This document shows, piece after piece, positions 46,813-57,149 of a DNA stretch of 64,000 nucleotides. The DNA is taken from the NCBI GenBank assembly GCA_030148805.1, contig JASBSS010000026.1, positions 62,001-126,000 on the forward strand, written 5' to 3'. The stretch is from Thiogranum sp. Lineage in GTDB: Bacteria > Pseudomonadota > Gammaproteobacteria > DSM-19610. Under the pieces are notes generated by a model. The model saw only the letters and a program-made list of their open reading frames with translations, made no database searches and was not told where the DNA came from. Numbering within the stretch: position 1 is the stretch's first letter; each line of letters opens with the position of its first letter. The position numbers and the translations under genes are program-made.

Positions 46813-49800
46813 CTACTCACCGCCCTGACGGCGCAGCGCTCGCTGCCGCCACAGGAGATACGTGGCGGGAATCACCATCAGTGTGAGCACTGTCGCGCTC
46901 AGCATGCCGCCGACCATGGGCGCGGCGATGCGGCGCATGACCTCGGAGCCGGTGCCATGGCCCAGCATAATGGGTAGCAGGCCGGCAATGATGGCCGCCA
47001 CCGTCATCATGATGGGGCGCACGCGCAATAACGCGCCTTCTATGATCGCCGTACGCAAGTTGTCGCGGTTCATCGGGCGTTTTTCCGCCAGCGCCAGTTG
47101 CTGGTGGCGGCGAAACGCCTGGTTGAGATAGACCAGCATGACCACGCCGATTTCCACCGAGACACCGGCCAGCGCGATGAACCCGACTCCTACTGCCACC
47201 GATAAGTCGTAGTGCAGCCAGTAGAGCAGCCAGATACCGCCGACCAAGGCCAGCGGCAGGGTGGCCAGAATGATCAATACCTCTGACATGCGACGGAAAT
47301 TCAGGTAAAGCAAAAGCACGATAATCGCCAGGGTCACCGGAACGACGGTGGAGAGGCGTTCCTTGGCACGCTCCATGTATTCGTACTGACCGGACCAGTT
47401 GAGCGAGTAACCCGCGGGCAGCTTCACCTGTTCGGCGACCACCTGTTTGGCTTCCTTGACATAGGAGCCCAGGTCGCGGTCCTGGATGTCGATATAAATC
47501 CAGCCGTTGAGTCGGGCGTTTTCGCTCTTGATCATGCCGGGCCCGTCGACGATACTGACTTTGGCGACGTCGCCCAGTGCGATCTGTGCGCCGATGGGAG
47601 TCTGGATCGGCAGCTCGGCCAGTTTGGTCTGCGAGTCGCGCAAGGCTCGGGGATAGCGCAGATTCACCGGGTACCGTTCCAGGCCCTCGATGCTCTCGGT
47701 GACGTTCATGCCGCCGACCGCGGTGCGGACGATTTCCTGGATGTCGGCGATGTTCAATCCATAGCGCGAGGCCGCGACACGGTCGATATCCACCAGCACG
47801 TAACGTCCGCCGACCACACGTTCGGAAAACACCGAGACGGTACCCCGCACGGGTTTCAACGCGCGCTCGATCTCCTCGCCGACTTTCTGGATCACCTTCA
47901 GATCGGGTCCGGCGACCTTGACGCCGACAGGCGTCTTGATGCCGGTGGCCAGCATGTCGATGCGGTTCTTGATCGGCATCACCCAGGCGTTGCTCATTCC
48001 GGGTACCTGCACCAGCGCATCGAGTTCGCGGCGGAGCTTGTCCATGGTCATCCCTGGTCGCCATTGGTCACGCGGCTTCAACTGAATAGTGGTCTCCACC
48101 ATCGTCAGCGGCGCGGGGTCGGTGGCCGACTCGGCGCGGCCCATCTTCCCGAATACCCGCGCGACTTCGGGTACGGTCTTGATCAGTCGGTCGGTCTGTT
48201 GCAACACCTGCTGCGCCTTGCCGATGGAGACGGCGGGAAAGGCGCTGGGCATGTAGAGCAGGTCTCCCTCGTCCAGGTCCGGCATGAATTCCGACCCGAG
48301 GCTGCTTTGCATGGGCCACCAGCCCGTCAGCGGCCAGAGCATCGACACGGCAGTCAAGGCCGATACCAACAGGACGGTTTTGGGGGCGCGCAATATCCAG
48401 TTGATAAGTGGCCTGTAGAGCGCGATCAGCAGACGGTTAAGCGGATTTCTGTCCTCGGCGATGATCTTTCCGCGAATGAAATAGCCCATCAGCACCGGCA
48501 CCAGGGTGATCGACAAACCGGCGGCACCCGCCATGGCATAGGTCTTGGTGAAAGCCAGGGGCGAAAACAGGCGCCCCTCCTGAGCCTCGAGGGTGAAGAC
48601 GGGAAGAAAACTCAGGGTGATGATCAGCAGGGAGAAAAACAGCGCGGGACCGACTTCGGCGGACGCCTCGGCCATGATCTGCCAGCGATTCTTGTCATTG
48701 ATGGCATTGTGCTCAATATGCTTGTGCACATTCTCTATCATGACAATGGCGGCATCGACCATCGCGCCGATGGCGATGGCGATGCCGCCCAGTGACATGA
48801 TATTCGCGTTGATGCCCTGAGCGTGCATGACGATAAAGGCCACCAATATGCCCACCGGAAGGCTGAAGATCACCACCAGCGCCGAGCGGATATGGAACAA
48901 AAACACGGCGCACACCAGCACCACCACGATGAATTCCTCGATCAGCTTCTCCTGCAGCGTGTCGATGGCGCGCATGATCAGGCCGGAACGGTCGTAGGTA
49001 GGCACGATCTCCACGCCTTCGGGCAGGCTGCGGGAGAGTTCGGCGAGCTTGTTCTTCACGCCCTCGATGGTGCTCAGCGCGTTTTCGCCCCAACGCATGA
49101 TCACCACGCCGCCGACCACTTCGCCTTCGCCATCGAGTTCGGCCAGACCCCGACGCATTTGCGGGCCGACGCGCACCTCGGCGATATCGCTCAAGACTAT
49201 GGGGGTGCCGTTGGCGTTGATACCGATGGGGATGTCCCGCAGTTGTTCAACCCCCTTGATGTAGCCGGTGGCGCGCACCATGTATTCCGCCTCGGCCATT
49301 TCGATGACCGAACCGCCGACCTCCTGGTTGCCCTGCTGGATGGCGGTTTTCACCTTGGCTAGCGGAATACCGTAGGCGCGCAAACGGTCCGGGTCGACGA
49401 CCACTTGATATTGCTTGACCATGCCGCCGATGGTGGCCACTTCGGAGACGCCGGGAACGGTCTGCAACTCGAACTTCAAGAACCAGTCCTGCAAGCTGCG
49501 CAGTTGGGAGATGTCGTGCTTGCCGCTGCGGTCGACCAGCGCATATTCATAGACCCAGCCGACGCCGGTGGCGTCCGGACCCAGCGCGGGGGTGGCGGCG
49601 GCGGGGAGTCGACTCTGCACCTGGCTGAGATATTCAAGCACTCGCGATCGCGCCCAATAGAGGTCGGTTCCGTCCTCGAACAGCACATAGACATAGGAAT
49701 CGCCGAAAAACGAATAGCCGCGCACCGTGGTTGCCTTGGGCACGGAAAGCATGGTGGTGGTCAGCGGGTAAGTCACCTGATCCTCCACCACCTGTGGGGC

Positions 49801-49968
49801 CTGTCCGGGATAGCTGGTCTTGATGATCACCTGGACATCGGAGAGATCGGGGATGGCATCGAGCGGCGTGTTTTTGATCGAATACACGCCCCAACCGACC
49901 AGAATCACCGTGAGCAGCAGAACCAGAAACCGGTTGTTGACCGACCAGCGGATAATGTCAGCGATCAT
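46813..49968 (-). CDS. cusA: Copper/silver efflux RND transporter CusA
   Basis: CusA pumps Cu(I) or Ag(I) from the periplasm or cytoplasm through the CusB/CusC conduit. The 1051-residue protein follows E. coli CusA nearly word for word in its N-terminal porter region ([31 protein letters not shown]). The three metal-binding methionines are conserved in [19 protein letters not shown] and NRIDMLATG. Twelve membrane segments are expected; the first is at residues 12-30. The ATG overlaps the cusB stop as ATGA. Confidence 0.95.
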
Positions 49969-51416
49969 TGCTGCGCCTCCGCGTCGCCCGGTTGCACGGA
50001 GTCGATGACGTAGCGGTCGTCGTCGCCGCGGATGAGGGTGAAGTGAACCGACTCACCGGGTTTCAAGGCCGAGAGATCGACCGCCTCGGTAACCGCGAAG
50101 TCCATGGTCATTTGCGGCCAACCGAGTGCGGCGATAGGCTGGTGGGATAGGTTCAGCTTGCGTTCCTGGGTAAATACTTCGTTCACCACCCCGGTGCCCA
50201 TGATCGGCTGGTCGCTTTGAGGCTGTTTCGCCGGGGCGTCGTTCTCCTCCGGCTCCATGCGGTTGAAACTCGCCCGCAGGCTGGCTTCGGAGTCGATCAG
50301 GAACTGGGCCGAGGTCACGACCCGGTCGCCTTCCTTGACCCCGGACTCGATCTCCACGAAATCGCCGCTCTCCAGGCCCACGCTGACCGGTACCGCCCGG
50401 AACTTACCCTCGCCCAGGTCGAGCACCACCCGGTCGCCGTTGCCGGTCCGGATCAGGGCTTCGCGGGGAATACTGAGCACGTCTTTTTTCGGGCCGGCGA
50501 AGATATCGACCTTGGCATACATGTCGGGCTTGAGCGTTTCGTCGGGGTTGTCGAACACCAGCCTGGCCTGCAGCGTGCGCGTTTTCGGATCGATGGTGGG
50601 GTAGACGAATTCCACTTTCCCCTCCCAGACCCGGCCCGGGAGATAGCCCAGTTGTACCTCGGCTGGTTGTCCGGGGGCCACCCACTCGGACTGGCGCTCG
50701 AAAATGTCCACCAACAGCCATACGCTGGAGAGATCGACCAGCGCCATCACCTCAGTGGCCGGCTTCACATACATGCCTTCGCGCACTTTCAGGCTATCGA
50801 CGATGCCGTCCTGGCTGGCGTGCACGCGTACGCGTTGGGCGGCACGGCGTTTGCGGCTGATCTCGCGGATCTGTTCCTGGCTGATACCCAATGCGACCAG
50901 CCGCTCGCGCGAGGCATCTTTGAGATGGCTGTTGTTGGCGCGCAGGGCCTGGATATATTCCTCCTGCGCGTTCACCAGGTCCGGCGAATACAGCTCGAAC
51001 AGGATATCGCCTTTGCGCACCCGCTCGCCGTTGGATTTCACATACAGTTTCTCCACCCACCCATCAGTGCGTAAGTGCAAATGACTGATTTTGCGCTCGT
51101 CAAAGGCTACGTATCCGACGGTACTGATGCGGCGCCAGAGCGCGCCGCGCTCGACCGGCGCGGAACGCACCCCGAGATTCTGCATCATCGCCGGATCGAT
51201 GGTGACGACGTTACCGTCACCATCGGCCTGGTCGGCGTACACCGGAACCAGATCCATGCCCATGGGGGATTTGCCAGGCTTGTCGCGGCGATAGTTGGGG
51301 TCCATGGGGGCGACCCAGTAGAGAATTTCGCGCTCCTCGGCGGCGTACGCCACGCTAGCGACCTGGCCCAGAGCCTGAAAGACGATAAGGAGCAACAAGG
51401 GGTGACGAACATTCAT
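49965..51416 (-). CDS. cusB: CusB membrane-fusion protein with C-terminal CusF domain
   Basis: The 483-residue periplasmic adaptor has a signal peptide (to about residue 26), an N-terminal heavy-metal-binding segment ([20 protein letters not shown]), the CusB barrel and hairpin domains, and a C-terminal CusF-like domain (about 400-475). The CusF metal ligands are present as His, Trp and two Met in [19 protein letters not shown]. coli keeps CusF as a separate chaperone; here it is fused. The gene overlaps cusC and cusA by four bases each. Confidence 0.94.
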
Positions 51417-52720
51417 GGTTTTTCTCCGGACTCAAGCCTGGGAATATCAGCCGATTGCGGTAACAGATAGAGCAGGCGCGCGCGGGTCTTTTCCCGGTCA
51501 ACCCGAATGCGCAGATCCTGCAGGCGTACTTCCAATTCGGTAATGCGCGCCCGCATCAAGGTATTGAACTCGTTGATGCCGCTTTGGTACGCGTTGACGG
51601 CAGCTTCTGCGTTGGCGGTCGCCTCGCGCAGCAACTGACTGCGGTAGAGTTCGGCCTGTTGGCCGAGCCTGTCCCACTGAGCGTACTCCGCGGCCAAGGT
51701 GCGTTGCAGTTGGCGTAAAACGGTTTCCCGCGTCTGGAGCGCCGCACCGGCCATCTGCTGGCTGGCCGCCAGTTGTTTGTCCTGGCGTTTATCGGGAAAC
51801 AAGGGGATGTCCATGGTGATCATGGCGGTGGCCATGTCGGGACGGTCGCGCCCGTTGTCGAACTCGCCAAAGCGTTTGTTGTAGTCGAGCCCCACATCGA
51901 AGCCGGGTTTGTATTGTTCGCGCGCCATATTGACTTCCTGCTGCGTGGCTTCGACCCGCGCGCTGGCCGCCCGGATCATCGGGTGGGTGGGCAGAGAGGC
52001 GCGCAGTTTCGTTTGGGAAGGGACGGCCGGCAGCCGTGGCAGGCCTGCCGAGAGCGGCTGCCAGGCGGCTTCGCCGATCCAGCGCGAAAGTACAGCGCGC
52101 TGGACGTCACCGAGCTTGTTAATCTGGGTGCTCTTGTCGTCCAGCCGTGACACTTCCAACTGCGCCAGCAATACGTCCTGTTGGCTGACGCGGCCGGAGG
52201 CGTAGTGTGCCCGGGTGATTTCGACGAGTTGTTCGAACAGGCCGCGGGTCTGGAGGACGATGGCGTCGGCTTTTTCCTGGTAGTACAACTCCAGAAACGC
52301 TTCGCGGACGTCGCGTTGGATGGTTTTGCGAGTGTTTTGCACCTGAGCTTCCTCGGCGCTGCTCAACCACTGGGTGCGTTTCTGTTTGTAAAAGAGACTG
52401 CGACCGCGCGGAAACGACTGGCGGATACCTGCGACGGCTTGCGACATGCCTTCGCTGCGCATGCTGAAATTGTCCAGCGGAACATTACGCAGGCTGAGGA
52501 ACAGCTTCGGGTCGGGCAATTGACCGTCGGCCACTGCCTGCTCGTCGAGCGCCTGGGCGCGGGCCTGGCCGGCAAGCACCGCGGGGTCGGCCTGCAACGC
52601 CAGGTGTTCGGCGGTGGCAAGTGTCAAGGCAGCCTGAGCCGCGAAAGAGGGGGCCAGGCCAGCCAACAAACAGGCGCTACGCCACGTGAACCGCCCTGCG
52701 GACGAAGAAAAAAACATCAT
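51413..52720 (-). CDS. TolC-family outer-membrane factor (CusC-like)
   Basis: This 435-residue protein is the outer-membrane channel of the Cus system. It has a signal peptide ending near residue 30 (FAAQA) and two outer-membrane-efflux repeats with long helices (FLELYYQEKADAIVLQ; AALQTRETVLRQLQRTLAAEYA). The double ATG at 52720 has CCGGAG upstream and is preferred over a longer frame. A lipobox as in E. coli CusC is not seen. The 86-base gap before it follows the Cys/His-rich gene. Confidence 0.9.
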   Translation of the reverse strand: MMFFSSSAGRFTWRSACLLAGLAPSFAAQAALTLATAEHLALQADPAVLAGQARAQALDEQAVADGQLPDPKLFLSLRNVPLDNFSMRSEGMSQAVAGIRQSFPRGRSLFYKQKRTQWLSSAEEAQVQNTRKTIQRDVREAFLELYYQEKADAIVLQTRGLFEQLVEITRAHYASGRVSQQDVLLAQLEVSRLDDKSTQINKLGDVQRAVLSRWIGEAAWQPLSAGLPRLPAVPSQTKLRASLPTHPMIRAASARVEATQQEVNMAREQYKPGFDVGLDYNKRFGEFDNGRDRPDMATAMITMDIPLFPDKRQDKQLAASQQMAGAALQTRETVLRQLQRTLAAEYAQWDRLGQQAELYRSQLLREATANAEAAVNAYQSGINEFNTLMRARITELEVRLQDLRIRVDREKTRARLLYLLPQSADIPRLESGEKP

Positions 52721-52806
52721 GACCGATCTCCGGTAAATCGATGACGACCGGGCCTGAACCAACTGCCACGGTCAGCGGATGGGGCGCTTTGCCCCGAAGC
52801 AGATTG

Positions 52807-53187
52807 TCAGACCGGCGGTCGGTACAGCGGTGGGGTCGGCACGGACGCCCACAATTGGCTGTAGGTGGGGAAAGGGATGAACAGGGGTTGCTTCGCCGTC
52901 AGCGCCGTGGCCAGACTGACATTCCATTGCATCTGCAAACTGCTGCACACCGTGGTCCCGCATTGGGCGGTGTCGCAGTGGCTATGCTGGCAATGCGCAC
53001 AGGCGGCCTTCGCCTGGGTTACCTGATAGTCGGTGGCGTCGGCGTGCGCGGGTGAGCGCTCCGCGTGCATCGGACAGTTCGCCAGTTCGGCGACCGCGAC
53101 CAGGGGCGCGAGCTGTGCTTGCAACGGAGAGACTAGGAGGCTCAACAGCAACCAGGCGAACGACAATTTGTTGGTTATCTTATGCAT
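52807..53187 (-). CDS. Small Cys/His-rich periplasmic protein, first gene of the cus operon
   Basis: The 126-residue product starts MHKITNKLSFAWLLLSLLV, a clear signal peptide cleaved near residue 24. The mature part has CPMH, several His and Asp residues, and the dense cluster CAHCQHSHCDTAQCGTTVC, followed by QMQWNVSL. I do not know the family; similar small secreted proteins (DUF2946-like or CopL-like) occur with copper genes. It likely binds Cu(I) or senses it. The ATG sits about 7 bases after the predicted transcription start and has no ribosome site. Confidence 0.75.
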   Translation of the reverse strand: MHKITNKLSFAWLLLSLLVSPLQAQLAPLVAVAELANCPMHAERSPAHADATDYQVTQAKAACAHCQHSHCDTAQCGTTVCSSLQMQWNVSLATALTAKQPLFIPFPTYSQLWASVPTPPLYRPPV

Positions 53188-53200
53188 ACGATTTACGGGG

Positions 53201-53229
53201 ATAATAAGGGGGTAGCGACCCAAACTCAA
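53201..53229 (-). promoter_or_regulatory. Promoter of the cus operon with dyad in the spacer
   Basis: On the minus strand TTGAGT (53229-53224) is followed after exactly 17 bases by TATTAT (53206-53201), both 4-5 of 6 matches. The spacer contains the dyad GGGT-CGCT-ACCC (53221-53210), a possible operator. Transcription should begin near 53194, only about 7 bases before the ATG. Confidence 0.55.
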
Positions 53230-53436
53230 GCGACTTGACCGGGGTAACGGCGGACGCCGCCGGAATCCGTCGGACAAGTGTTTGGGCAGGCAGCGTTTTC
53301 CTTTAGCGAGGTCGCTGGTGTCCCGGGGCCGCGAGGCGAGGCAGGCCTGCATAATCATAGGCTTAACAGATTCTTCATCTATGTGCTGATAAGGTCCGGC
53401 GTCGCGAACCGATCATCACTGGAGTAAGCTAAATCG

Positions 53437-55209
53437 ATGAGCACCCGCTCTGACCTGTTGACCCGATTTTTTCCGTTTTTAATCTGGTGGCCGAAACTCG
53501 ACCGGCATACCGTCAGAGGCGATCTGCTCGCCGGTCTCACCGGCGCCGTGGTAGTTCTGCCGCAGGGCGTCGCGTTCGCCACCATCGCCGGCATGCCCCC
53601 GGAATACGGTCTCTACGCGGGTATGGTGCCCGCCATTGTCGCCGCCCTGTTCGGCTCGTCCTGGCATCTGGTCTCGGGGCCGACGACGGCGGCCTCCATT
53701 GTTCTGTTTTCCTCGCTCAGTGTGTACGCCGAACCGGGCTCGATGGACTATGTGACCCTGGCTTTGACCATGACGTTGATGGTGGGCGTGATCGAACTGG
53801 TGCTGGGGTTGGCGCGGATGGGGGCGCTGGTCAACTTTATCTCTCATTCCGTCATTGTAGGTTTTACCGCGGGCGCGGCGATTTTGATCGCGAGCAAACA
53901 GTTGAAGAATTTTTTTGGCGTGGAGATTCCGCGTGGCGGCCATCTGCACGATATTCTGATTAGCTTTTGGCATCAGATCCCCCATATCAACGGGTACGTG
54001 ACGCTGGTGGCGCTGGTGACGCTGCTGTCGGGCATCGCGGTCAAGCGTTGGTGGCCGAAGTTGCCGTATCTGATTGTGGCGATGGTCGCGGGCAGCCTGG
54101 TCTCGGTCGCTCTTACCAGCGTGTTCGGTGTCGAAACCACCGGAATCGCCACGGTTGGCGCGCTGCCCAGCTCGCTGCCTCCGCTGTCGGCGCCGAGTTT
54201 TTCGCTCGATACGATCAAAAACCTGGCGCCGGCGTCCTTGGCCGTGACGCTGTTTGCGCTTACCGAGGCGGTGTCGATAGGCCGTTCGCTGGGTGCGCGC
54301 AGTGGCCAACGTATCGACGGCAACCAGGAATTCATCGGTCAGGGGCTGTCCAATATCGCCGGGAGTTTTTTCTCGGGTTATGTCGCTACCGGTTCGTTCA
54401 ACCGCAGCGGCTTGAACTTCCAGGCCGGCGCGAAGACGCCGCTGGCGGCGATGTTCGCCGGCCTGTTTCTCATTGTCATCGTCCTGATGGTGGCCCCGCT
54501 GGCGGCGTATCTGCCCAACGCGGCCATGGCCGGCATTTTGTTTCTGGTGGCCTGGGGGCTGATCGATTTCCACGAAATCGCTCACGTGCTCAAATCGAGC
54601 CGGCGCGAAACGGGCATCATGGGCGTGACCTTTCTCGGGGCGTTGTTCCTGGAGCTGGAGTTCGCCATTTTTGCAGGGGTGATCCTGTCGCTGGTGTTGT
54701 ACCTGATGCGGGTGTCTAAACCGCGCATCATCTCGCGCGTTCCCGATCCGCGTCTGCCGGGTCGCAAATTCAATACCGATCCGAGCCTGCCGATGTGTCC
54801 GCAGCTGCACATTCTGCGCATCGACGGTTCGCTGTTTTTCGGGTCCATCAATCACGTACAGGAGGCTTTTGCCGACCTGGAGGAACACTACCCGCAGCAA
54901 AAGCACCTCGCCATCGTCGCCGAAGGCATCAATTTTGCCGACATCACCGGCGGCGCCATCATGGTCGAGGAGGCGCGCAAGCGCCGTGCCCGCGGCGGTG
55001 GTTTTTACCTGATGAAGGTGAAACAGGGCTTGTGGGAATCGCTGGAAAGCTGCAGCTGCCTCGATGCCATCGGCCCGAACAACGTTTTTCAGTCGAAAAC
55101 CGCAGCGCTCACCGGTATATTCCAGAAACTGGACAAAAATGTGTGCCGGCGCTGTGACAAACGCATATTCCGCGAATGTGCATCCGTCCCACGTGAAGTA
55201 TCCGACTAA
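53437..55209 (+). CDS. SulP-family anion transporter with STAS domain and Cys-rich tail
   Basis: SulP proteins move sulfate, bicarbonate or other anions. The 590-residue protein has the SulP core (residues about 20-430) with GVAFATIAGMPPEYGLYAG and SFNRSGLNFQAG, and a STAS domain (about 450-555). The end carries six cysteines in CSCLDAIG and CRRCDKRIFREC, which is not usual in the family. Substrate cannot be told from sequence; bicarbonate uptake is known for SulP members in autotrophs. It is followed after 13 bases by a response regulator gene. Confidence 0.9.
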   Translation: MSTRSDLLTRFFPFLIWWPKLDRHTVRGDLLAGLTGAVVVLPQGVAFATIAGMPPEYGLYAGMVPAIVAALFGSSWHLVSGPTTAASIVLFSSLSVYAEPGSMDYVTLALTMTLMVGVIELVLGLARMGALVNFISHSVIVGFTAGAAILIASKQLKNFFGVEIPRGGHLHDILISFWHQIPHINGYVTLVALVTLLSGIAVKRWWPKLPYLIVAMVAGSLVSVALTSVFGVETTGIATVGALPSSLPPLSAPSFSLDTIKNLAPASLAVTLFALTEAVSIGRSLGARSGQRIDGNQEFIGQGLSNIAGSFFSGYVATGSFNRSGLNFQAGAKTPLAAMFAGLFLIVIVLMVAPLAAYLPNAAMAGILFLVAWGLIDFHEIAHVLKSSRRETGIMGVTFLGALFLELEFAIFAGVILSLVLYLMRVSKPRIISRVPDPRLPGRKFNTDPSLPMCPQLHILRIDGSLFFGSINHVQEAFADLEEHYPQQKHLAIVAEGINFADITGGAIMVEEARKRRARGGGFYLMKVKQGLWESLESCSCLDAIGPNNVFQSKTAALTGIFQKLDKNVCRRCDKRIFRECASVPREVSD

Positions 55210-55222
55210 GCAGGTGACACGT

Positions 55223-55909
55223 ATGTATGCTTTAGTAATCGAGGACAATCCCGACCTGGTCGCCAACCTCTATGATTTTTTGGAGCCCAAGGGCTACGTG
55301 CTGGACGCCGCCTACGACGCCCGAACGGGTTACCAGTATGCGCAGGACAAGGAATACGACATCATCATTCTCGACCTGACGCTACCCGGTATGGACGGCT
55401 TGGAGTTATGCCGCCGCCTGCGCGATTCGGGCAATATCACGCCGGTGCTGATTCTGACCGCGCGCGATACGCTCAACGCCAAGCTCGATGGTTTCGCCGC
55501 CGGTTCGGATGATTATCTGGTCAAGCCCTTCGCCTTGCAGGAACTCGATGCCCGCATCCGCGCCCTGGTGCGGCGGGCGCGCTGCGAGCAGCGGCGTGAG
55601 CCGCTGCGGGTTTCCGACCTGGTTTTCGACCCCGATACACTCAAGGTGGAGCGTGGCGGCAAGCACATCACCCTGCCGCCCATCCCGCTCAAGATGTTGG
55701 CCCTGCTGATCCGCCAGTCGCCGCGGGTGGTGCCCAAACGGGAGCTGGAGCGACGCATCTGGGGCAACGAGCGTCCTGACAGCGACGCCTTGCGCACGCA
55801 TTTGCATGTGTTGCGCAGTGCCATTGACAAGCCCTTCGAGACCCATCTGCTGCGCACGGTACACGGTATGGGCTACCAGCTCGCGGCGCCCGATGAAGTT
55901 CAGGACTAG
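55223..55909 (+). CDS. OmpR-family response regulator
   Basis: The 228-residue protein has a receiver domain (1-115) with the acidic pocket, the phosphoacceptor aspartate in IIILDLTLPGMDG and the lysine in YLVKPF, then a winged-helix DNA-binding domain (about 130-225). The ATG at 55223 is preferred because the protein begins directly with the first receiver strand. It overlaps the kinase gene by 17 bases. The target genes are probably the neighbouring transporters. Confidence 0.94.
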   Translation: MYALVIEDNPDLVANLYDFLEPKGYVLDAAYDARTGYQYAQDKEYDIIILDLTLPGMDGLELCRRLRDSGNITPVLILTARDTLNAKLDGFAAGSDDYLVKPFALQELDARIRALVRRARCEQRREPLRVSDLVFDPDTLKVERGGKHITLPPIPLKMLALLIRQSPRVVPKRELERRIWGNERPDSDALRTHLHVLRSAIDKPFETHLLRTVHGMGYQLAAPDEVQD

Positions 55910-57149
55910 TCTTCGCTATCGGGTTACTTTCGCTTTTACCCTGCTGGGAGCGTTCATCAGCATAATGCTGGCGATGCTGCTCTACCGCGAAACCGTCTCC
56001 GCCGAAATGCGCCTGGTGGCCGATACCCTGACGATGGAGATCGGCGACTATCTACAGCGCTCGCTGCACGATCCCGACACCCGCCTTCCCTCCAGCACCG
56101 TCATGCGCACCTATCTCATCGAGCCTGGGAGGACCACGGACGTACCGCCCCAGGTGCTGTCGCTCAAGCCGGGGCTGCACCGTTTGGAGCTCGAAGGCTC
56201 CACGTTTTACGTGGAGGTGGTCGAAGACAGCGGGCGGCGCATCGCGGTGCTCTACAACGACCTCCAGCTGCGCCATCGCGAACAGCAATACAAAGTCTTT
56301 CTCAGCGCCTCGGTGCTGGTTATGACCTTGCTCTCGGCGGCCCTGGGATACTGGCTCGCCGGGCGGGTGGTTTCGCCCGTGGCCGAGCTGGCACGCCGGG
56401 TCCGGCGCATGGTCCCGGGAAACACCCAGATCAAGCTGGCGGGGCGATTTTCCGACGACGAGGTCGGCGTGCTGGCCCGTAGTTTCGATGATTATCAGGC
56501 ACGGCTGCAGGCGTTCATTCAGCGCGAGCAGGCCTTCACCGCCGATGTCAGTCACGAGCTGCGTACACCGCTGGCGGTGATCGAGGGCGCGGCGGAGGTT
56601 CTGCAGGAAGACGAGGGGCTGGGCGAGGGCCAGCGTCGACGGGTGCGGCGCATCATGCGCGCCGCGCAGGAAATGGCCGAAACCACAGCCGCCTTGCTGG
56701 AACTGGCGCGCGAGCAGGCCACCGGTCAGACCTCCAGCGGCTGCCGCGTATCCAGTGTATTGCAGGAGGTGGTGGAGACCCATCGCTATGTGCTCGAGCG
56801 CAAACAGGTCGAGGTGCTGGTGGACGTTCAGGACTGCCCCGAGCTGCCGGTCGACTGCGCCTTGCTACGCATTGTTGTTGGCAACCTGATCCGCAACGCC
56901 TTTTCCTACACCCGCGAAGGCTGCGTGAGTATCGCCCTGGACGCTACCGGTATTCGCGTCAGCGACACCGGCGTGGGTATTGCCGATCACCACCTGAATG
57001 AAATCTTCAAACCCTTTTTCAGCGAACAGGGGGGGGAGGGGATTGGTCTGTCGCTGGTCAAACGGATCTGTGTGCGCTATGGCTGGAGTCTGGAAGTCAG
57101 CAGCGAGCTGGGTACCGGCACCTGCTTCAGTCTGCTGTTCGACGCCTGA
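55893..57149 (+). CDS. Sensor histidine kinase
   Basis: The 418-residue membrane kinase has a first membrane segment (residues about 9-30), a periplasmic loop of about 110 residues, a second segment (about 143-163), a HAMP domain, the H-box DVSHELRTPL near residue 220, the N-box NLIRNAFSY, DTGVGI and GEGIGLSLVKR. The periplasmic loop has no cysteine or histidine cluster that would reveal the signal. The start lies inside the response regulator gene. Confidence 0.93.
   Translation: MKFRTSLRYRVTFAFTLLGAFISIMLAMLLYRETVSAEMRLVADTLTMEIGDYLQRSLHDPDTRLPSSTVMRTYLIEPGRTTDVPPQVLSLKPGLHRLELEGSTFYVEVVEDSGRRIAVLYNDLQLRHREQQYKVFLSASVLVMTLLSAALGYWLAGRVVSPVAELARRVRRMVPGNTQIKLAGRFSDDEVGVLARSFDDYQARLQAFIQREQAFTADVSHELRTPLAVIEGAAEVLQEDEGLGEGQRRRVRRIMRAAQEMAETTAALLELAREQATGQTSSGCRVSSVLQEVVETHRYVLERKQVEVLVDVQDCPELPVDCALLRIVVGNLIRNAFSYTREGCVSIALDATGIRVSDTGVGIADHHLNEIFKPFFSEQGGEGIGLSLVKRICVRYGWSLEVSSELGTGTCFSLLFDA

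Follow-up and report, generated by a model that had tools for sequence, protein, structure and literature searches.

The window, a 64,000-nt stretch of a Thiogranum sp. contig (JASBSS010000026.1), carries on its minus strand a cusC–cusB–cusA operon headed by a small leader gene, with 86 nt between the stop codon of the leader and the start of the co-directional cusC:

52807–53187, minus strand: leader gene for a predicted CutF/CopL-like secreted Cys-rich leader peptide (126 amino acids plus stop); cusC adjoins it in relatives
52728–52733, minus strand: CCGGAG, Shine–Dalgarno (SD) region of cusC (SD duplex −6.6 kcal/mol)
51413–52720, minus strand: cusC, outer-membrane efflux protein (PF02321, E = 1.9e-35)
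49965–51416, minus strand: cusB-type adaptor with HMBD and C-terminal CusF domain (profile search)
46813–49968, minus strand: cusA, heavy-metal RND pump (TIGR00914, 1295.6 bits against a cut-off of 701.45)

The same order, leader gene and then cusC, recurs in relatives beyond chance. The adaptor gene (49965–51416, minus strand) encodes a CusB–CusF fusion, in which a heavy-metal-binding domain stands at the N-terminus and a CusF domain at the C-terminus (PF11604, E = 7e-23). Beside the operon, divergent genes at 53437–57149 (plus strand) encode a sulP-family permease, a CusR-like response regulator and a sensor kinase; sulP adjoins the leader in two relatives (L004 and L005) as well.

Translation of the leader ORF gives a protein that begins with MHKITNKLSFAWLLLSLLVSPLQAQ and ends with PLYRPPV. 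Its N-terminus resembles a signal peptide, with clear n and h regions, a hydrophobic core and an invariant M1, as read off the family alignment. Six Cys residues (38, 63, 66, 71, 76 and 81) occur in the 126 residues, five of them in a cluster spaced C63-x2-C66-x4-C71-x4-C76-x4-C81, with C38 apart and His at H65, H68 and H70. The preliminary description of a small protein dense in Cys and His therefore stands for the cluster, although not for the literal HxxHC string, which reads CAHCQHSHC. Two elements of the protein are central to what follows:

52945–53001, minus strand: Cys cluster C63–C81 (CAHCQHSHCDTAQCGTTVC), putative Cu(I) site; its five Cys are invariant in a 10-sequence alignment
52813–52821, minus strand: codons for R123-P124-P125, putative arrest motif, one residue ahead of the stop; Pro-Pro is invariant in 10- and 25-sequence alignments

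The full set of positions invariant across the 10-sequence alignment is M1, W12, P21, C38, C63, C66, C71, C76, C81, S115, P120, P124 and P125. The Cys cluster may bind Cu(I).

No Pfam or NCBIfam model matched the leader protein alone over cut-off, and neither the CopL family model NF033807 (cut-off 40 bits) nor the DUF2946 model PF11162 matched it at E ≤ 10. A bridge to CopL emerged from the 25-sequence leader profile, 8 of whose 25 members match NF033807 at E ≤ 0.1; the best of them, L018, does so over nearly its whole length (E = 9.2e-10, 39.3 bits against the cut-off of 40). The filter used to list CutF-like proteins (PMC9973294) takes proteins of fewer than 150 amino acids that have an N-terminal Sec signal peptide, PP within the last 15 residues and a co-directional gene no more than 1,000 nt downstream; the leader has 126 amino acids, the signal-peptide-like n and h regions seen in the alignment, Pro-Pro at P124–P125 and cusC after 86 nt. 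Pro-Pro occurs in the last 15 residues of all 100 relatives sampled, as RPP in 72 of them, and the distance from the last Cys to Pro-Pro is nearly constant (median 41 residues, interquartile range 38–43, 100 relatives). RAPP or RGPP, motifs for which arrest is known, ends none of the 100 relatives; the leader in the window ends in RPPV. The family, which the preliminary description did not name, can be named: the leader appears to be a member of a CutF-like/CopL-like family of secreted Cys-rich leaders with Pro-Pro near the stop codon. Membership of the DUF2946/CruR group was rejected, given the missing PF11162 match, the lack of any DUF2946 protein in its own genome (1 of 114 genomes of the class has one) and the lack of profile similarity between the 25-sequence leader profile and the one DUF2946 member found.

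Single-sequence search matched the leader in 12 of 20 genomes of the order. With the 25-sequence profile, the genus gave matches in 16 of its 17 genomes, the class in 50 of 369 and the phylum in 8 of 398; every one of these counts includes the leader's own genome. A scan of genome contigs gave one relative (L044), and a plasmid search with the leader protein gave no match. From 116 distinct family ORFs, 111 had E ≤ 1e-6 and a length of at most 320, and 107 of these had a start by a fixed rule; they formed 100 clusters at 70% identity, 94 with a downstream ORF. The preliminary description had proposed looking for homologues at the head of copper operons, and they are there: of 39 close relatives, 35 are followed by a gene for an outer-membrane efflux protein and 3 by one for a multicopper oxidase. 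Among 55 more distant relatives, the next gene encodes a multicopper oxidase in 13, an efflux protein in 10 and a Porin_O_P-type porin in 7. The paralogous leaders ahead of porin-like genes (7/55 Porin_O_P; L082, L084, L089, L090, L086 and others) also have a C-terminal Pro-Pro, and these genes are a second regulated target in need of explanation. One genome (G386) holds four family members (L048, L061, L062 and L063), in which the leader has multiplied.

Upstream of the leader gene, a single σ70-like site, TTGAGT-17-TATTAT, was found within 52600–53500, where 0.1 would be expected in shuffles:

53224–53229, minus strand: −35 hexamer TTGAGT, identical in L004, L005 and L006
53201–53206, minus strand: −10 hexamer TATTAT, spacer of 17; TATTAT or TATGAT in L004–L006
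53188–53194, minus strand: predicted 5′ leader of about 7 nt without SD, placed from the −10 hexamer (SD duplex +0.6 kcal/mol)

The −10 hexamer lies 13 nt ahead of the leader ATG, the upper limit of this spacing in the family. With a start 7 nt after the −10 hexamer, the predicted 5′ leader would be about 7 nt long, and the anti-SD duplex at the leader start (+0.6 kcal/mol) indicates that no SD is present. Both the 17-base spacing (53229–53201) and the start some 7 bases ahead of the ATG without a ribosome site, as first described, were recovered here; with the start predicted from sequence, promoter spacing and missing SD agree with a leaderless messenger. An operator role is unlikely for the reported GGGT/ACCC dyad, which is indeed present in the promoter spacer (GGGTCGCTACCC) yet missing from three relatives (L004, L005 and L006) that share the −35 hexamer and the same or nearly the same −10.

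We scored σ70 sites by matrix in the 120 nt upstream of 100 family members below 70% identity, taking the nearest ATG ahead of the hydrophobic core as the start. Among 40 close relatives (E < 1e-16), 30 had a best −10 that ended 5–13 nt ahead of the ATG (20 shuffles, mean 4.1, maximum 7), as did 49 of all 100 members (shuffles, mean 10.4, maximum 16). When the start could also be an in-frame ATG at most 10 codons further upstream, the raw counts were 38/40 and 59/100. In the controls, the same position was occupied in 12 of 94 cases for next genes and in 11 of 73 for ordinary genes of the same loci, and a near-ATG site scoring at least 8 was present in 41 of 100 leaders versus none of the 73 ordinary genes. 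SD energies differed between leaders and next genes: the leaders had a median of −1.5 kcal/mol (shuffled −1.9), indicating no SD, and the next genes −6.2 kcal/mol (shuffled −2.4), indicating one. When leaders were sorted by next gene, the best −10 lay at 5–13 nt in 36 of 48 ahead of efflux genes, 7 of 12 ahead of multicopper oxidases, 5 of 34 in a mixed class of others and 1 of 6 with none found. A leaderless start for porin-type and other leaders was rejected on the count of 5/34, and for the same reason we assign the trait to the cus leaders and partly to the multicopper-oxidase leaders; by eye, the porin-type paralogues lack a near-ATG promoter. These comparisons support the near-leaderless promoter as a conserved trait of the cus leader family: what had been proposed for one gene holds family-wide (36/48 efflux leaders against 11/73 ordinary genes).

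It is distinctly improbable, in our judgement, that transcription bypasses the near-ATG promoter and starts further upstream, giving an ordinary or structured 5′ untranslated region. Such a start would be compatible with the sites having been called by matrix scoring, with the window −10 lying at 13 nt, the far end of the family range, and with the precedent of CruR, which starts 45 bp upstream (PMC9426467). It is hard to reconcile with a positional enrichment over 100 sequences below 70% identity that is absent in two control sets, or with leaders that lack an SD. In addition, czcI2 of Cupriavidus metallidurans, listed as CutF-like (PMC9973294), was measured as leaderless in that organism (PMC7563307), where 4.67% of primary starts are reported to be leaderless (PMC7563307). 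A conserved leaderless start would be unusual in Gammaproteobacteria; for Alteromonas, 10 leaderless transcripts were reported with 1,315 gene starts (PMC5864184). The open-access journal papers searched yielded no description of a leaderless start for this leader family.

We compared the native RNA duplex energies of leader and next-gene pairs with those of swapped SD regions, in 12-nt windows, for 84 of the 94 pairs, kept for a gap of 45–240 nt and a usable SD (the energy in this filter is that of the start choice). Downstream of the Pro-Pro codons, the RNA at 3–16 nt is matched to the SD region of its own next gene more closely than to swapped SD regions, with z = −10.1 at +4 (0 of 2,000 permutations). 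Anchored on the end of Pro-Pro, the signal was at background from −30 to −6, peaked at +4 and returned to background from +12. The possibility that the RPP codons themselves are the anti-SD was rejected, as windows over Pro-Pro are at background (z = −0.8 at −6) and the peak lies at +4. When pairs were classed by 1, 2, 3, 4 or at least 5 residues between Pro-Pro and stop (n = 13, 22, 17, 16 and 16; z = −3.1, −2.5, −5.7, −3.6 and −4.6), the best offset after Pro-Pro was +3 in four of the five classes and +9 in the 2-residue class, and the stop-anchored best offset drifted from −3 to −18. The anti-SD is thus phased on Pro-Pro rather than on the stop, which explains why an anti-SD directly after the stop, a candidate that we rejected, shows no excess over all 84 pairs. 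Matching was found with efflux genes (z = −7.3, n = 44) and other genes (z = −5.5, n = 28) and was weaker with oxidases (z = −2.7, n = 12). The last seven leader codons pair better with the SD than do random synonymous codons (z = −7.1), and in folds that include the ORF tail the SD is paired mainly with tail or stop in 58 of 84. Folds of the intergenic region without the ORF tail gave an SD pairing of 0.67 against 0.72 in shuffles, and shielding by that region alone was discarded. In 52 of 84 pairs, no more than 15 nt separate the A-site Pro codon from the end of the stop, so that an arrested ribosome, by its footprint on the mRNA, would cover much of the matched RNA. The open-access journal papers searched likewise yielded no description of an anti-SD phased on Pro-Pro. 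The next-gene SD itself often reads ATGGAG (23/94 overall and 15/39 in close relatives; for example L076 and L051), and an ATG therefore overlaps it.

In the window, two stretches are candidate partners of the cusC SD:

52810–52820, minus strand: partner (a), the tail of the leader ORF, GACCGCCGGTC, matched to the cusC SD/start region (duplex −16.3 kcal/mol)
52794–52799, minus strand: partner (b), CTTCGG downstream of the stop, matched to the cusC SD CCGGAG (duplex −9.4 kcal/mol)

The tail–SD helix (a) lies outside the minimum-energy fold, and forcing it costs 5.7 kcal/mol; for partner (b), shuffling the stretch that contains it gives p = 0.13. SD pairing in these folds is partial and hardly altered with a ribosome modelled over the stop. 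Since folding of the window is not clear-cut, we infer the SD switch of this operon from the family.

Plain translational coupling would also suit an anti-SD placed at the stop or in the codons just ahead of it: the leader would load ribosomes without sensing copper, each ribosome arriving at its end would open the cusC SD, and copper would act on transcription alone through a CusRS-type system; a CusR-like response regulator is indeed encoded nearby on the opposite strand. Coupling of this kind leaves unexplained the invariant Cys, the constant Cys-to-Pro-Pro distance and the phasing on Pro-Pro rather than stop, and we regard it as improbable. The preliminary description favoured a periplasmic Cu(I) sponge made first. 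On this reading, a sponge or chaperone would be exported, bind copper and buffer it or pass it to CusB or CusC, with cusC translation merely coupled. The signal-peptide-like N-terminus and the Cys invariant in the 10-sequence alignment are as a sponge would have them, and the CusF domain on CusB shows that the operon has a place for a periplasmic metal carrier; the conserved C-terminal Pro-Pro and the anti-SD phasing, however, have no role in a sponge, and CutF, which senses copper during export, acts only in cis and is degraded as it is exported (PMC9973294). We consider a sponge unlikely, and the weaker reading against the marks of CutF, CruR and CopL that the family carries: Pro-Pro in 100/100, a fixed Cys distance and a matched anti-SD.

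We propose, with a probability of roughly two in three, that the leader is a cis-acting regulatory leader of the CutF/CopL kind for the cus operon, translated from a near-leaderless messenger, sensing through its nascent chain and acting through an anti-SD gate on cusC. The operon, the protein family, the promoter-to-ATG spacing, the SD-less leaders and the family-wide anti-SD matching phased on Pro-Pro come from computation; what this model would add to them is copper binding, arrest, which way the response runs and why the start is leaderless. The σ70 promoter would fire almost at the ATG, yielding a nearly leaderless messenger with an SD-independent start, and the signal peptide would lead the nascent protein to the Sec channel. 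The Cys cluster, whose last Cys stands about 41 residues before Pro-Pro in the family, could then emerge and bind Cu(I). With copper, the ribosome would linger on Pro-Pro and keep the anti-SD 3′ of it open, allowing translation of cusCBA; without copper, it would finish and leave, the anti-SD would close on the cusC SD and little pump would be made. The leader is thus most likely a throw-away sensor, whose own translation decides production of the efflux pump. The leaderless start would place few ribosomes on each message, and the state of the SD would therefore follow single sensing events.

More tentatively, and at somewhat less than even odds, we suggest a general rule: gammaproteobacterial copper-efflux operons are headed by leaderless arrest-peptide genes, in which selection phases the anti-SD of the pump gene 3–16 nt after the arresting Pro-Pro, within or just ahead of the arrested footprint, and the leaderless start holds down the number of ribosomes, the switch being set by a single copper-sensing ribosome at any one time. 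CutF-like leaders are numerous (5,334 listed in PMC9973294), and few have been studied by experiment. The phasing on Pro-Pro provides sequence evidence that arrest in this branch occurs at Pro-Pro, and it singles out the bases to alter. If the leaderless start is needed for the switch, it would give a concrete reason for keeping leaderless messengers.

The proposed arrangement resembles several known systems. In SecM–secA, a secreted leader that arrests close to its C-terminus frees the SD of the gene that follows; the signal there is secretion rather than a metal. In both CutF and CruR, the nascent chain senses copper and controls the downstream gene (PMC9973294, PMC9426467). CruR, the DUF2946 protein of Bordetella pertussis, is an upstream ORF with CXXC and RAPP, and shares with the window leader a Cys motif and, on the model proposed here, a C-terminal arrest motif and a copper-regulated next gene (PMC9426467); in vitro it arrests on RAPP, the two Pro codons then occupying the P and A sites (PMC12992588). 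It differs in its RAPP motif, Rho-dependent OFF switch, 162-bp gap and start 45 bp upstream (PMC9426467), and the window leader has no PF11162 match. Xanthomonas CopL (NF033807; L152, assigned by identity to 20 named plasmid records) is likewise a Cys/His-rich secreted leader with an RPP end (HLIRPPIG) upstream of a copper operon. That operon is copAB and the one in the window is cusCBA; the window protein does not match NF033807, the link running through intermediates such as L018. The likeness to CutF of Rhodobacter capsulatus extends over size, the Cys motif, a signal peptide (predicted in the window leader), a Pro-Pro close to the C-terminal end and a short gap to a co-directional copper gene whose SD is, or in the window would be, shielded by an anti-SD. 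In the CutF-like survey, too, outer-membrane efflux proteins are reported as the commonest neighbours (PMC9973294). CutF depends on both its Cys motif and its Pro-rich end, and the SD that it governs is shielded by a stem-loop; its Pro-rich tail alone was reported not to stall (PMC9973294). A word search of the main texts on CutF (PMC8456105 and PMC9973294) found no mention of a leaderless messenger. The anti-SD of CutF, as described there, lies in a 40-bp intergenic stem-loop (PMC8456105, PMC9973294), whereas that of the window family runs through the end of the leader ORF and is phased on Pro-Pro.
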